Below are positions 60,092 through 63,237 of a stretch of 64,000 nucleotides of DNA, in pieces (the first letter of the stretch is position 1; every line of letters begins with the position of its first letter). The stretch is from Halostella litorea. Its GTDB lineage: Archaea > Halobacteriota > Halobacteria > Halobacteriales > Natronoarchaeaceae. Both the position numbers and the translations under genes were made by a program. The DNA lies in contig NZ_SJER01000001.1 in NCBI RefSeq assembly GCF_004785955.1, positions 248,001-312,000 on the forward strand, given 5' to 3'. A model generated the notes under the pieces. The model searched no databases and was not told the DNA's origin. It saw only the letters and a list, made by a program, of their open reading frames with translations.

Positions 60092-60271
60092 CAGTATCAC
60101 GAGAGCGTAGGCCCCAGGCGGTTATAAGACTTGTGTAGAGAACATACAATCCTCTACGGAGGCGCTCCCGACGCGACGAACCCCGCCGTCGACGTGTCGC
60201 TCCTCGTCGTGCGACCGGATTCACTCGTCGAGATACTCGACGCGTCGCTCGTCGGGTAGTTCGCTGAAAAG

Positions 60272-60346
60272 TGCTCCGGCAGGGATTTGAACCCTGGTCC
60301 TTGCCGTGAGAGGGCAAGATGATTGGCCGGACTACACCACCAGAGC
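60272..60346 (-). tRNA. tRNA-Glu (anticodon CUC)
   Basis: Minus strand from 60346: acceptor GCTCTGG pairs with CCGGAGC (60273-60279) and the discriminator is A. Anticodon stem TTGCC/GGCAA encloses loop CTCTCAC, giving anticodon CUC (Glu, codon GAG). T-arm CAGGG-TTCAAAT-CCCTG. CCA is not encoded, as usual in archaea. The 5' half (60300-60346) is repeated perfectly at 63042-63088, so this tRNA is the attachment site of the mini-element. Confidence 0.93.
60300..60346 (-). repeat. 47-bp attachment repeat, copy inside intact tRNA-Glu
   Basis: Identical over 47 bases to 63042-63088, from the anticodon stem to the 5' end of the tRNA. Marks one end of the integrated element. Confidence 0.92.
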
Positions 60347-60769
60347 ATTTCGCATCTGTTGGCCTCAGACACCCATCATCGGGCGTCTTCGTCTTCCGCA
60401 CTCGATTGAACGCACCGTTCGTATATAAATGGCACGAAATTGTCTCAAAAACATAGCCGGTTCACTGGACAGACTATCCCCCATTACTTCTTGCGAACTT
60501 CCTTGTTCCAAGCTATCAAGACTGAGGGAATATATAATAAGAATTATAAATCCCCCTTTTAATCTGATATAGTGGTTTTGCCGACTCAATGTATTCCAAC
60601 AGGCTAATTGAAACATGAACTGAGCTGGTCACTACACCTTTGGGTTAAACAATATCCGACATCAATGAATCATAACTCACTATCGGTACCGCAGATAGAA
60701 TATCTCCTGACGGTATGGTCAGCAGAAAATTATTAATAGAATGCCATCATCTTATCAGGATAGATTCTA
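60347..60769. other. Gene-free AT-rich leader of the mini-element
   Basis: 423 bases. A TATA-like TTTATATA (minus strand, 60422-60429) lies about 76 bases upstream of the tRNA 5' end and is the only visible candidate promoter that the displaced tRNA could now use. An AAATTATTAATAG (60727-60739) lies about 30 bases before the cargo ATG at 60770. No further gene is visible. Confidence 0.5.
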
Positions 60770-61000
60770 ATGATTGAGTATGTTCAGTATCTTGCTTTCG
60801 CTGGTATAGGTGCGGTTGGGTATGGATTTGCAAATCGAGTGGGGTCAATATTGGCAGAAGGAGGAGTTGATCGCGTCAAAGCCGACACAATTGGTCGCGA
60901 TGACCAAGCTGACAACTCCCAAGTTCTTGAGAAAATGGACCGCCTTAGAGAGGAGAAGAAGAAAGCAATTGAAAAAAGGACAAGAAGATCCAAGAAGTAG
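60770..61000 (+). CDS. Mini-element cargo protein, upstream frame (possibly frameshifted)
   Basis: 76 residues: a membrane helix YVQYLAFAGIGAVGYGFANR, then a charged coiled-coil segment KMDRLREEKKKAIEKR. The end after the A6 run at 60972-60977 (RTRRSKK) is out of frame with the likely continuation. In the -1 frame the coiled coil goes on as KKDKKIQEVEDRLTDYERIT and joins the frame that ends at 61749. The full product would be ~326 residues. No family recognised. Confidence 0.6.
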   Translation: MIEYVQYLAFAGIGAVGYGFANRVGSILAEGGVDRVKADTIGRDDQADNSQVLEKMDRLREEKKKAIEKRTRRSKK

Positions 61001-61749
61001 AAGATCGGTTAACCGACTATGAGCGAATCACTCGATCACTGAAGCAAGATAGCTTAGCAAGGGAGCGACTGATAGAAAGATATTGGAAACCTCTACATGC
61101 AGTCCTAATTTGCTTTGCATCCCAAAAGGATAGTGATGGAAATACAAAGAAGTTTATAAGAGATAAATTAGAGGAGAAATATACTCTACACCGTCTCACT
61201 GGTTTTACCTATATTATTCCTCCTGCTGACGTACCCGATGTACTGAAAAAGAATCGAAATACACGGGAAGACATCAGGGAATGGATTAAGACAGACTTCT
61301 ATGAAGAGAACCCTAAAGCTCGCTCAACGATTTGCTTTGCTGGCGTTGTGGATCTCCGTAACGTCTATTCAAGAACCGACCATTCCAAAGAAGATAGAGT
61401 ATCGTTCTTTAGCACAATTGACGAAGAGCTTGATTTAGAAGAGATATTTAATGAGAATGACTTTTCAAAGCTATTGGCATCAAAAGGCGTTAATCTCACA
61501 AAAATGATAGAAGAAGGGGACATTGCATTTTTTGCTTCCAAATCAATTACAACTTCTGAGTTAGATACCATACACGATAATCAGGATGAAATTGAATCCA
61601 ATCTGGGTGATCCGAATCTGAAAGAATTAGCAAATATGCAGAAAGACACAATCGAGGAAGTCATAGCACCATATCTCTCAGACCCATCAGAAGTAGCTGA
61701 ATCAATAATTGAAGAAGCATCCATTTGGAGTCGAGAGTTGTATGAATGA
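60972..61749 (+). CDS. Mini-element cargo protein, downstream frame (possible -1 frameshift product)
   Basis: Continuation in the -1 frame relative to the ORF starting at 60770. It reads KKDKKIQEVEDRLTDYERIT, YWKPLHAVLICFASQKDSDG, GFTYIIPPADVPDVLKKNRN, then TICFAGVVDLRNVYSRTDHS and a helical, acidic C-terminal third ending WSRELYE. No start codon of its own is obvious upstream of GTG 61348. It lacks known catalytic motifs. Candidate defence, immunity or regulatory gene because of its position as the sole cargo of an integrative element. Confidence 0.55.
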
Positions 61750-61786
61750 GGTGATTTTGTCCTTCACATAGACCGGATTTTCGTCT

Positions 61787-62899
61787 TCACCAGAGTTGAT
61801 TTAGAGTTTTACTACGATCTTCCGGGCTAACGTTATCATAGCGAGCAGTAGTTTCAATATTTTTATGACGCAATTGTTCTTTTGTTGCCTTTAGATCACG
61901 TTTCTTAGTCATTGCGGTGGCAACACTATGGCGAAGAGTGTACCAGCTCATTGTCCGACCGGCAGGATCAATGCTTGCTTCCTCGATGAGTTTTTGGATG
62001 AGATAGCGGAGGGAAGACGAACTGTAAGGATTGTCCTCTCGGGTCAACCAGAGCAGGTCGCTATCGGTGTACTTCGGATAGAGTTCACGTTCATCAAGCC
62101 AGCGTTCGAGAGCGGCTGAAGTCTTTTCGTTGAGTCCCACGGTCCAGTTCTCTGTGTTTTTACTGGACTCATCGGCGGGGATTCGGAGGACACTATTTTT
62201 CGTATCAACCCAGTAGGTCTTGGCGCGTTCCACCTCAATGGGTCGAAGGCCCGCATCGGTACTCGCATAAACGAGTGAAGTGATTTTCCAGCCATTAGCT
62301 TTTTTCCAGTCATCGGGTTTGACTTCGTGCTTGGGCTTGTCGAACCGTTGAGCGAGGTGGCCTTTCCACCGATCTCGTTGGTCTGGACTGAGGTCGCTGT
62401 ATCGAGGAACTGTGGCATAGTCGCGGGCAGCCGCACGAAGTTTCCGTACTTCTTCGGGACGGAGGATGTCCTTTAGGCGGTTGCCGGAATTGTCCTTAAA
62501 ATTCCGTTCAAAATCGAGTTCAGGACCATTGTAAGTGAGCTGTCGCCATTTGTAGAGACGTTTGAGGGCAGTTTGCACGGTAGCTTTGCTGCTGCCAGCT
62601 TCGTCCCCTCGATGAAGATGTTTGAGATATTGGTTTGCATGGTCGTTGTCGATGGCAGTGAAATATCGGTCTTCTTGTGACCACACCCATCGATAAAATT
62701 GGTCAGTTCGGTAGGCAGTATTAGTGACGGTATTTTCGGAGTATCCTTCCCACTTGCCGGGGTCCTTGCCCTCTTTGAGGAGCCATGTGATGAACTGTTC
62801 TCGTTCAGTTCGATAGTCCATTAACTGCTTTTCTGGCAGTTGATCCTCTGAGTTCTGCGTGATGACTGGGAATTGTGACAAATCGATTTCGTTTTTCAT
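61787..62899 (-). CDS. int: Tyrosine recombinase (XerC/D-type integrase)
   Basis: 370 residues. SAM-like N-terminal core-binding domain (about 30-135, VTNTAYRTDQFYRWVWSQED), then the catalytic domain with Arg in STDAGLRPIEVERAK, the box II YTLRHSVATAMT (His-x-x-Arg with Tyr at the first His), His in LRHKNIETTARYDNV and the nucleophile Tyr in the same motif. It catalyses integration and excision at the tRNA-Glu repeat. Its ATG is 143 bases from the outer repeat copy at 63042. Confidence 0.92.
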   Translation of the reverse strand: MKNEIDLSQFPVITQNSEDQLPEKQLMDYRTEREQFITWLLKEGKDPGKWEGYSENTVTNTAYRTDQFYRWVWSQEDRYFTAIDNDHANQYLKHLHRGDEAGSSKATVQTALKRLYKWRQLTYNGPELDFERNFKDNSGNRLKDILRPEEVRKLRAAARDYATVPRYSDLSPDQRDRWKGHLAQRFDKPKHEVKPDDWKKANGWKITSLVYASTDAGLRPIEVERAKTYWVDTKNSVLRIPADESSKNTENWTVGLNEKTSAALERWLDERELYPKYTDSDLLWLTREDNPYSSSSLRYLIQKLIEEASIDPAGRTMSWYTLRHSVATAMTKKRDLKATKEQLRHKNIETTARYDNVSPEDRSKTLNQLW

Positions 62900-62922
62900 T
62901 GAGTCGGCCTCTATTTGTTAAC

Positions 62923-62952
62923 AACCCACTTTCTTGTCGCAGATAGTGGGTT
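62923..62952. promoter_or_regulatory. Inverted repeat AACCCACT...AGTGGGTT upstream of int
   Basis: Eight-base arms (62923-62930 and 62945-62952) with a 14-base spacer, located 24 bases before the integrase ATG. It could be the integrase binding site, an operator or part of the attachment arm-site. Confidence 0.45.
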
Positions 62953-63041
62953 TTGTTTCGTGTTGCGCGAAGACGCATACTACCGTTTTGGGTGCTGAGG
63001 CCGATGAAAATGGGTGAAGTCCTTTTTTCCGTTTAATCACG

Positions 63042-63088
63042 CTTGCCGTGAGAGGGCAAGATGATTGGCCGGACTACACCACCAGAGC
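63042..63088 (-). repeat. 47-bp attachment repeat, outer copy (tRNA-Glu 5'-half remnant)
   Basis: Perfect copy of 60300-60346. Immediately outside it, on the minus strand, a TATA-like TTAAATTA (63114-63121) lies about 30 bases upstream, which is the natural tRNA promoter left behind with the remnant. Confidence 0.92.
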
Positions 63089-63237
63089 GCATCCTATGCT
63101 AAACCGGGCTGGTAATTTAACGGTTGCGCTTCGTCGCCGCCGTGTGGCGGTTCACCGTATCATAGTGTTCGCGCTCGCCAAGCGCCGACGCTCGCCGATA
63201 CGGTACAAGCCCCGACAACCAGTGAGCGCAAACGCTA

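Follow-up and report, generated by a model that had tools for sequence, protein, structure and literature searches.

In a 64,000-nucleotide stretch of the Halostella litorea genome (contig NZ_SJER01000001.1; the whole stretch is called the window, and positions are those of the window), a tyrosine-integrase element in the tRNA-Glu(CUC) gene has captured the 5' half of its target, and comparative data make it quite probable that the element re-supplies a promoter to the rebuilt tRNA, with the native tRNA promoter left driving the integrase gene. By carrying the 3' half of their target, most elements that integrate into tRNA genes keep the host promoter in place. What appears to be new here is a 5' mode among haloarchaeal integrases whose family chiefly captures the 3' half, together with an unsplit integrase and a recurring promoter-like block. 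Both modes occur in one integrase family, several members of which have a similar attachment (att) architecture, so that switching of the captured half is testable in halophiles. The transcription of a tRNA that has no second copy is likewise directly testable there, and elements of roughly 2.7 kb (ours and that of genome G311) are small, convenient models.

Insertion within tRNA-Glu(CUC)

60271..60346, minus strand: intact tRNA-Glu(CUC) (ARAGORN), with positions 1-47 in the integrase-distal repeat copy and positions 48-76 chromosomal
60300..60346, minus strand: att repeat, integrase-distal copy, within the intact tRNA (repeat comparison)
63042..63088, minus strand: att repeat, integrase-proximal copy, which is the displaced tRNA 5' part (1-47) with the native promoter still ahead of it
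61787..62899, minus strand: tyrosine integrase, 370 aa, one open frame (Pfam Phage_integrase, E 1.1e-18)

An earlier note on this DNA had described a 47-bp perfect repeat at 60300-60346 and 63042-63088, and this is exact: 47/47 positions are identical, and the identity ends at both edges. Because the sole ARAGORN tRNA prediction in the window, a tRNA-Glu(CTC), spans 60271-60346 on the minus strand, the repeat corresponds to tRNA positions 1-47, and the further claim that the intact tRNA has its 5' half and upstream DNA from the element is thus borne out. The element is AT-rich and ~2.7 kb long, with a GC content of 44% vs 68% and 71% in the two flanks, and it contains the intact integrase gene and one frameshifted cargo gene. 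When the flanks are joined without the element, their alignment with the tRNA locus runs through the junction in 4/4 same-genus genomes (G001-G004), over 177 bp at 95% identity (L005), 1050 bp at 72% (L006), 148 bp at 88% (L007) and 214 bp at 79% (L012). The note had named a lack of empty sites in close relatives as a ground for refutation, and all four genomes are empty; an integrase match at E 0.001 was found in none of them. Both repeat copies lie on one 1.46-Mb contig. The arrangement consists of an intact tRNA and a fragment in the same orientation with the integrase between them, the 5' fragment being upstream of the intact tRNA, and corresponds to the tRNA/fragment configuration rule for tRNA-targeting tyrosine-integrase elements (PMC4383910; this and the other publications below are cited from excerpts). 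Repeat, tRNA, integrase, GC contrast and empty sites agree with the note that a tyrosine recombinase encoded inside integrated within the tRNA, and judged by its sequence, the locus is an integrated tyrosine-integrase element with its insertion in tRNA-Glu(CUC).

The integrase is homologous to integrases of haloarchaeal elements that carry the 3' half of tRNA-Glu (3'-type relatives), with up to 55% identity over 361 residues. Residues R219, K247, Y320 and Y354 are kept in 54/54 aligned rows, and R323, H324 and H345 in 53/54. R219, K247, Y320, R323, H345 and Y354 are likely the conserved catalytic positions, with Y320, as we assume, standing in for the usual HxxR histidine. Named genomes with a related integrase are mostly Halobacteria, the remainder being metagenome bins labelled Euryarchaeota or haloarchaea, and 49 records of the phage collection, almost all labelled Halorubrum or Haloarcula, hold one as well. 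When viral contigs were scanned by pattern, neither the integrase nor the second cargo piece yielded a confirmed relative.

Attachment arms and promoters

60361..60405, minus strand: distal arm of the element's attachment site (attP), tRNA coordinates -14 to -58, in the new 5' flank of the tRNA; inverted partner of the integrase-side arm
62958..63002, minus strand: integrase-side attP arm, tRNA coordinates 87 to 131 (inverted-repeat test)
63117..63130, minus strand: native tRNA promoter, transcription factor B recognition element (BRE)/TATA, AGCGCAACCGTTAA, beginning 42 nt ahead of tRNA position 1; position weight matrix score 12.1
60394..60429, minus strand: promoter-like block, TTTATATA (60422-60429) plus GAGTGC (60398-60403); similar in G311, G372 and G259

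The two arms form an imperfect inverted repeat of ~45 bp, the centre of which, at tRNA position 36.5, falls in the anticodon loop (35-41). None of 500 shuffles scored as high as the arms (38), and the direct orientation gives 16. Inverted arms were also found in four relatives, with centres at 36 (L052), 36-37 (L155), 37-39 (L151) and 42.5 (G013), and 1, 1, 12 and 0 of 500 shuffles, respectively, scored as high; the far-end copy of L052 runs from the anticodon loop to the tRNA 3' end. As the midpoint of the arms lies in or close to the anticodon loop both in our element and in these four relatives, the crossover site in that loop is probably unchanged from the 3'-type relatives, and we conclude from the arm comparison that our element has their att architecture and differs in the captured half.

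The native promoter is conserved at the same-genus empty sites L006, L007 and L012, and CGCAACCGTTAAA precedes the tRNA in three same-genus genomes in which the upstream sequence was inspected, and the remnant in ours. Scores were obtained with a matrix (consensus ATCGAAACCCTTAT) of 42 upstream sequences of host tRNA calls, comprising 41 Rfam tRNA matches and Arg(gcg)_28, which was called by ARAGORN alone; the tRNA under study was excluded. The native promoter had been thought to drive only a remnant. It does face the remnant, but its reading direction continues to the integrase gene 142 bp on, and these 142 bp contain no T-run of at least 5. On the element side, the integrase arm fills the usual promoter zone, and all four tRNA-Glu elements with a 5' part beside the integrase (ours, G311, G372 and G259) carry a TTTATATACG..CGGTGCGTTCAATCGAGTGCGGAAG-type block at about -84 to -45. 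The similarity of our block is 40 to that of G372, 38 to G259 and 26 to G311, and the pairs G311-G372 and G372-G259 reach 42 and 46, with 0/300 shuffles as high in each comparison. The spacing from TATA to GAGTG is 25-26 nt in ours, G311 and G372 (3/4 elements), and a TATA/GAGTG composite with 24-27 nt spacing is present upstream of 5/42 host tRNA calls (shuffled mean 0.01, maximum 1).

According to the mechanism that we propose, attP carries the 5' half of tRNA-Glu(CUC) with the anticodon stem-loop, and recombination by the integrase probably takes place within the anticodon loop, as it seems to in related integrases. Structurally, the element contributes the 5' half and the upstream flank instead of the 3' half, and the chromosomal 3' half is therefore completed to an intact tRNA with element DNA as its 5' flank. 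The block at about -84 to -45, at and beyond the outer edge of the arm, would then drive the rebuilt tRNA, giving a precursor from which RNase P would trim a leader of about 55 nt, and the native tRNA promoter would be left to transcribe the 5' remnant and, beyond it, the integrase gene. In effect, tRNA and integrase would swap promoters on integration. More tentatively, and with clearly lower confidence, this exchange could be a switch: the promoter of the circle would read across attP to the integrase, integration would hand this promoter to the tRNA and the native one to the integrase, integrase bound to the arm in the 5' leader of the tRNA would couple the integrase level to tRNA supply, and the design would have been kept in one haloarchaeal lineage across host families. 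Two tRNA-Arg elements fit a need to keep a promoter, as the 81-bp repeat of G126 includes the host promoter, and G054 has a 13/14 copy of it at the same distance.

Several observations weigh against this reading. A promoter at the usual distance (-60 to -16) was sought on the element side, and the best score in that zone was -4.7, below all 42 host calls; the TTTATATA site is not among the top hits of the matrix. The block match between G311 and G259 is weak (17, with 35/300 shuffles as high), G259 does not have the TATA-start composite, and this composite was picked post hoc, when the sequences had already been seen. The 3'-type elements L052, L151 and L155 likewise have TATA boxes at -70 to -74, and the block may therefore primarily or originally be the integrase promoter of the circle, reading through attP. 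The arms of the other 5' elements are weak or off-centre, with centres at 16.5 in G311 (78/500 shuffles as high), 29-30.5 in G372 (34/500), 29 in G259 (2/500), 31-34 in G054 (3/500), about 30 in G375 (0/500) and -16 in G126 (0/500).

Related integrase loci and rival explanations

In 61 loci, the DNA ahead of the integrase start was read on one strand, on which a tRNA of the opposite strand is invisible. Among the 60 loci other than ours, 56 show a match extending to the 3' end of a tRNA oriented like the integrase, one has an internal 15-nt match, and three, one of them at a contig edge, have none. A further 80 loci gave 63 full matches, 4 with only the 3' part, 6 with only the 5' part, 5 with an opposite-strand tRNA-Ser(TGA) and 2 without a match; the full matches are partly so by construction, because the tRNA library used for classification includes the loci's own tRNAs. 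In total, 12/141 loci including ours are 5'-sided: 4 at tRNA-Glu(CUC), 2 at Arg, 1 at Leu and 5 at Ser. The 141 loci include repeats, and a 60-mer test gave 99 groups but merges distinct loci that share identical tRNA stretches, so that the true number lies between 99 and 141; all 12 5'-sided loci stayed unmerged and hence are distinct. Six elements have the 5' part ahead of the integrase and the intact tRNA at the integrase-distal end, as in ours:

G311, tRNA-Glu: repeat 44 bp, period 2,680 bp
G372, tRNA-Glu: repeat 42 bp, period 10,856 bp
G259, tRNA-Glu: repeat 44 bp, period about 59.7 kb
G054, tRNA-Arg: repeat 42 bp, period 5,913 bp
G126, tRNA-Arg: repeat 81 bp, period 10,214 bp
G375, tRNA-Leu: repeat 46 bp, period 4,804 bp

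Given the period of the G311 element, ours, which the note had counted among the smallest possible integrating elements, is not the smallest. The tRNA-Ser(TGA) elements (G053, G314, G384, G236 and G337; L254-L258) have the tRNA 5' end towards the integrase in divergent orientation, with a 5' remnant at the far end in G053, G314 and G384 and a near-complete copy in G236 and G337; this is a second 5'-sided geometry. Two family-wide searches returned 59 loci, mostly already read and 7 clearly new, and no additional 5' case among them (47 full, 3 with the 3' part, 4 with the 5' part, all known, 2 opposite-strand, both known, and 3 without a match). A pattern census of the tRNA 5' part (at most 1 mismatch) in 392 genomes, 235 of them matching, found a second copy in no genome but ours, G013 and G324; real 5' elements escaped it, as the pattern extends past the end of their repeats.

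In a tree of 62 integrases, the 12 5'-sided loci need 3 changes (bootstrap 2-4), vs a mean of 11.1 after shuffling, with 0/500 shuffles as low, and the 5' mode therefore looks inherited within a few integrase lineages. The placement of our own integrase adds to the points listed above against the proposed reading: it stands with G311, G372 and G259 at 82/38 only, and in a 54-row tree, from which the other 5' elements were absent, it stood with L097 and the phage L160 at 89/57. Since the two trees place it differently, we are unsure of its exact position. Excluded from the first tree were L057 (a short match with a stop), L058, L060, L061 and L155 (too short) and five identical copies; from the second, L048, L054, L110, L152 and L161 were thinned out.

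The captured 5' half could also have arisen from an attP that once held the complete tRNA, the integrase-proximal copy having later lost its 3' half by deletion. Near-complete tRNA copies at both ends of the 16-kb related element of G013 (tRNA-Glu) and of G236 and G337 (tRNA-Ser) would fit such an origin, as would the virus HSTV-4, which has an annotated tRNA-Thr before its integrase, and a distance from core to integrase that is about 30 bp below that of our closest relatives, L106 and L107. However, our distance is within the range of the relatives, whose shortest gap, counted from the tRNA 3' end, is 117 bp; our arms lie symmetrically around the anticodon loop; and the repeats of six others end at tRNA positions 34-44, so that deletions would have to recur there. 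We therefore regard this origin as unlikely for our element, and duplication of a full tRNA is a possible evolutionary route to a 5'-half attP. It is very improbable that the locus arose by misassembly or is a remnant that has decayed and become immobile: the cargo is frameshifted, but there is no difference between the two repeats, which lie in the same 1.46-Mb contig, the integrase gene is uninterrupted, and other genomes share the arrangement.

We also had to consider that the tRNA is silent after integration, with GAG codons decoded by tRNA-Glu(UUC) and the element tolerating or exploiting this. The genome has 43 tRNA matches, of which 42 were typed, and Glu(CUC) occurs only at the window locus (the one untyped match is C1:150876-150973); a single tRNA-Glu(UUC) gene is present at C1:20782, and ARAGORN predicts an intron-containing tRNA-Glu(UUC) in L076, outside the Rfam match set. 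The presence of a tRNA-Glu(UUC) gene and the lack of a canonical promoter at -60 to -16 speak for silencing. Against silencing, GAG makes up 266/376 Glu codons in 16 window open reading frames chosen by a rough composition filter, the tRNA gene is intact, and the promoter-like block is shared by four elements whose integrases are divergent, which leaves a silent tRNA a poor prospect. The note had offered either a new promoter from the element or reliance on another tRNA-Glu copy; the conserved block favours the former, and a second tRNA-Glu(CUC) copy is without support (1/42 typed).

Known systems, cargo gene and further observations

In Islander, 3,760 of 3,919 islands have 3' fragments and 159 have 5' fragments (PMC4383910). 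Within archaea, a 2021 review describes the pTN3-like integrases as unique in using the 5' half (PMC8371274), and another paper names one thaumarchaeal 5'-half element and cites further cases (PMC6563490). In the pTN3/TKV4-type elements of Thermococcales, as in ours, attB is the tRNA 5' half and the rebuilt tRNA is severed from its own promoter (PMC8371274, PMC5495485). On integration, however, their integrase gene is split and its promoter comes to drive the rebuilt tRNA (PMC8371274), whereas our integrase is one open frame clear of both att copies, and the flank of the tRNA is the integrase-distal end. CalSub-E1 of Ca. C. subterraneum differs from ours in belonging to another lineage. For haloarchaea, integrases that adjoin tRNA-Glu and have a truncated tRNA copy at a distance of 5-48 kb have been described (PMC3119063), and the HVO_2815A/HF2-type at tRNA-Glu, likened by its description, is probably the family of our 3'-type relatives. 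These integrases adjoin a complete tRNA, whereas beside ours there is only the 5' part 1-47. Our element shares with the 3'-type tRNA-Glu family the integrase homology and the arms centred on the anticodon loop, and has neither a complete tRNA beside the integrase nor the 3' half in attP. Our literature search turned up no printed 5' element in haloarchaea, by which we do not claim its absence from print. In tRNA-dependent lysogeny of mycobacteriophages, the element must likewise secure the supply of the tRNA that it breaks (PMC10865867); in that case, a separate tRNA gene of the phage stands in for the broken tRNA, which is not restored, whereas ours is rebuilt at the junction.

60770..61000, plus strand: cargo, first reading frame, 76 aa (list of open reading frames and homologue comparison)
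60973..61749, plus strand: cargo, second reading frame, 258 aa (61% identity to an intact single-frame homologue in G048)

The element had been credited with one cargo gene. A single gene is what the homologues have, with one open frame of 336 aa in G048 (the 61% identity applies over the second piece) and in Halar_0054 of strain DL31, but here there are two frames, overlapping near a short A-run. Because the homologues have one open frame, our cargo would be broken, or frameshift on translation, or hold a sequencing error. The second piece has homologues in 13/392 genomes of the order, ours counted. Searches of Pfam, PHROGs, PADLOC and NCBIfam for a cargo function gave nothing convincing: the matches were weak, many of coiled-coil type, and those having a curated cut-off fall far below it. 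Strain DL31 carries the integrase Halar_0055 and the cargo homologue in a convergent layout as in ours, but our integrase had no match in that stretch at E 1e-3.

62923..62952, minus strand: 8-bp inverted repeat AACCCACT/AGTGGGTT, immediately upstream of the integrase start

G311 likewise has a 9-bp inverted repeat shortly before its integrase start (L243:950-983), of a sequence different from ours, and both are possible operators. At the distal ends of L052, L151 and L155, TTGCC-N-GGCAA inverted repeats are found just upstream of the distal TATA box; they resemble the tRNA anticodon stem and may perhaps be a core-type site of the integrase. In G048, tRNA-Glu(CTC) holds an insert of 1.8 kb (L151:4950-6795), which has inverted arms (12/500 shuffles) and a copy of the tRNA 3' half, and as the stretch has no match to this integrase family, it is possibly an element mobilised in trans. 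The 16-kb element of G013 (L158:2122-18217) has near-complete copies of tRNA-Glu(CTC), the distal one of which deviates in the acceptor 5' strand, and G324 (L159:1704-2020) holds a tandem pair of tRNA-Glu(CTC) genes, start to start about 240 bp. Upstream of the related integrase of HRTV-2 (L160, 619-672), a 54-nt match of 96% covers positions 32-85 of tRNA-Leu(GAG), which is the 3' part. A second integrase relative in the H. litorea genome itself (C4, L097:5718-6924; 38% and 51% identity in two pieces) lies downstream of a complete tRNA-Leu(TAG), in a 3'-type arrangement.

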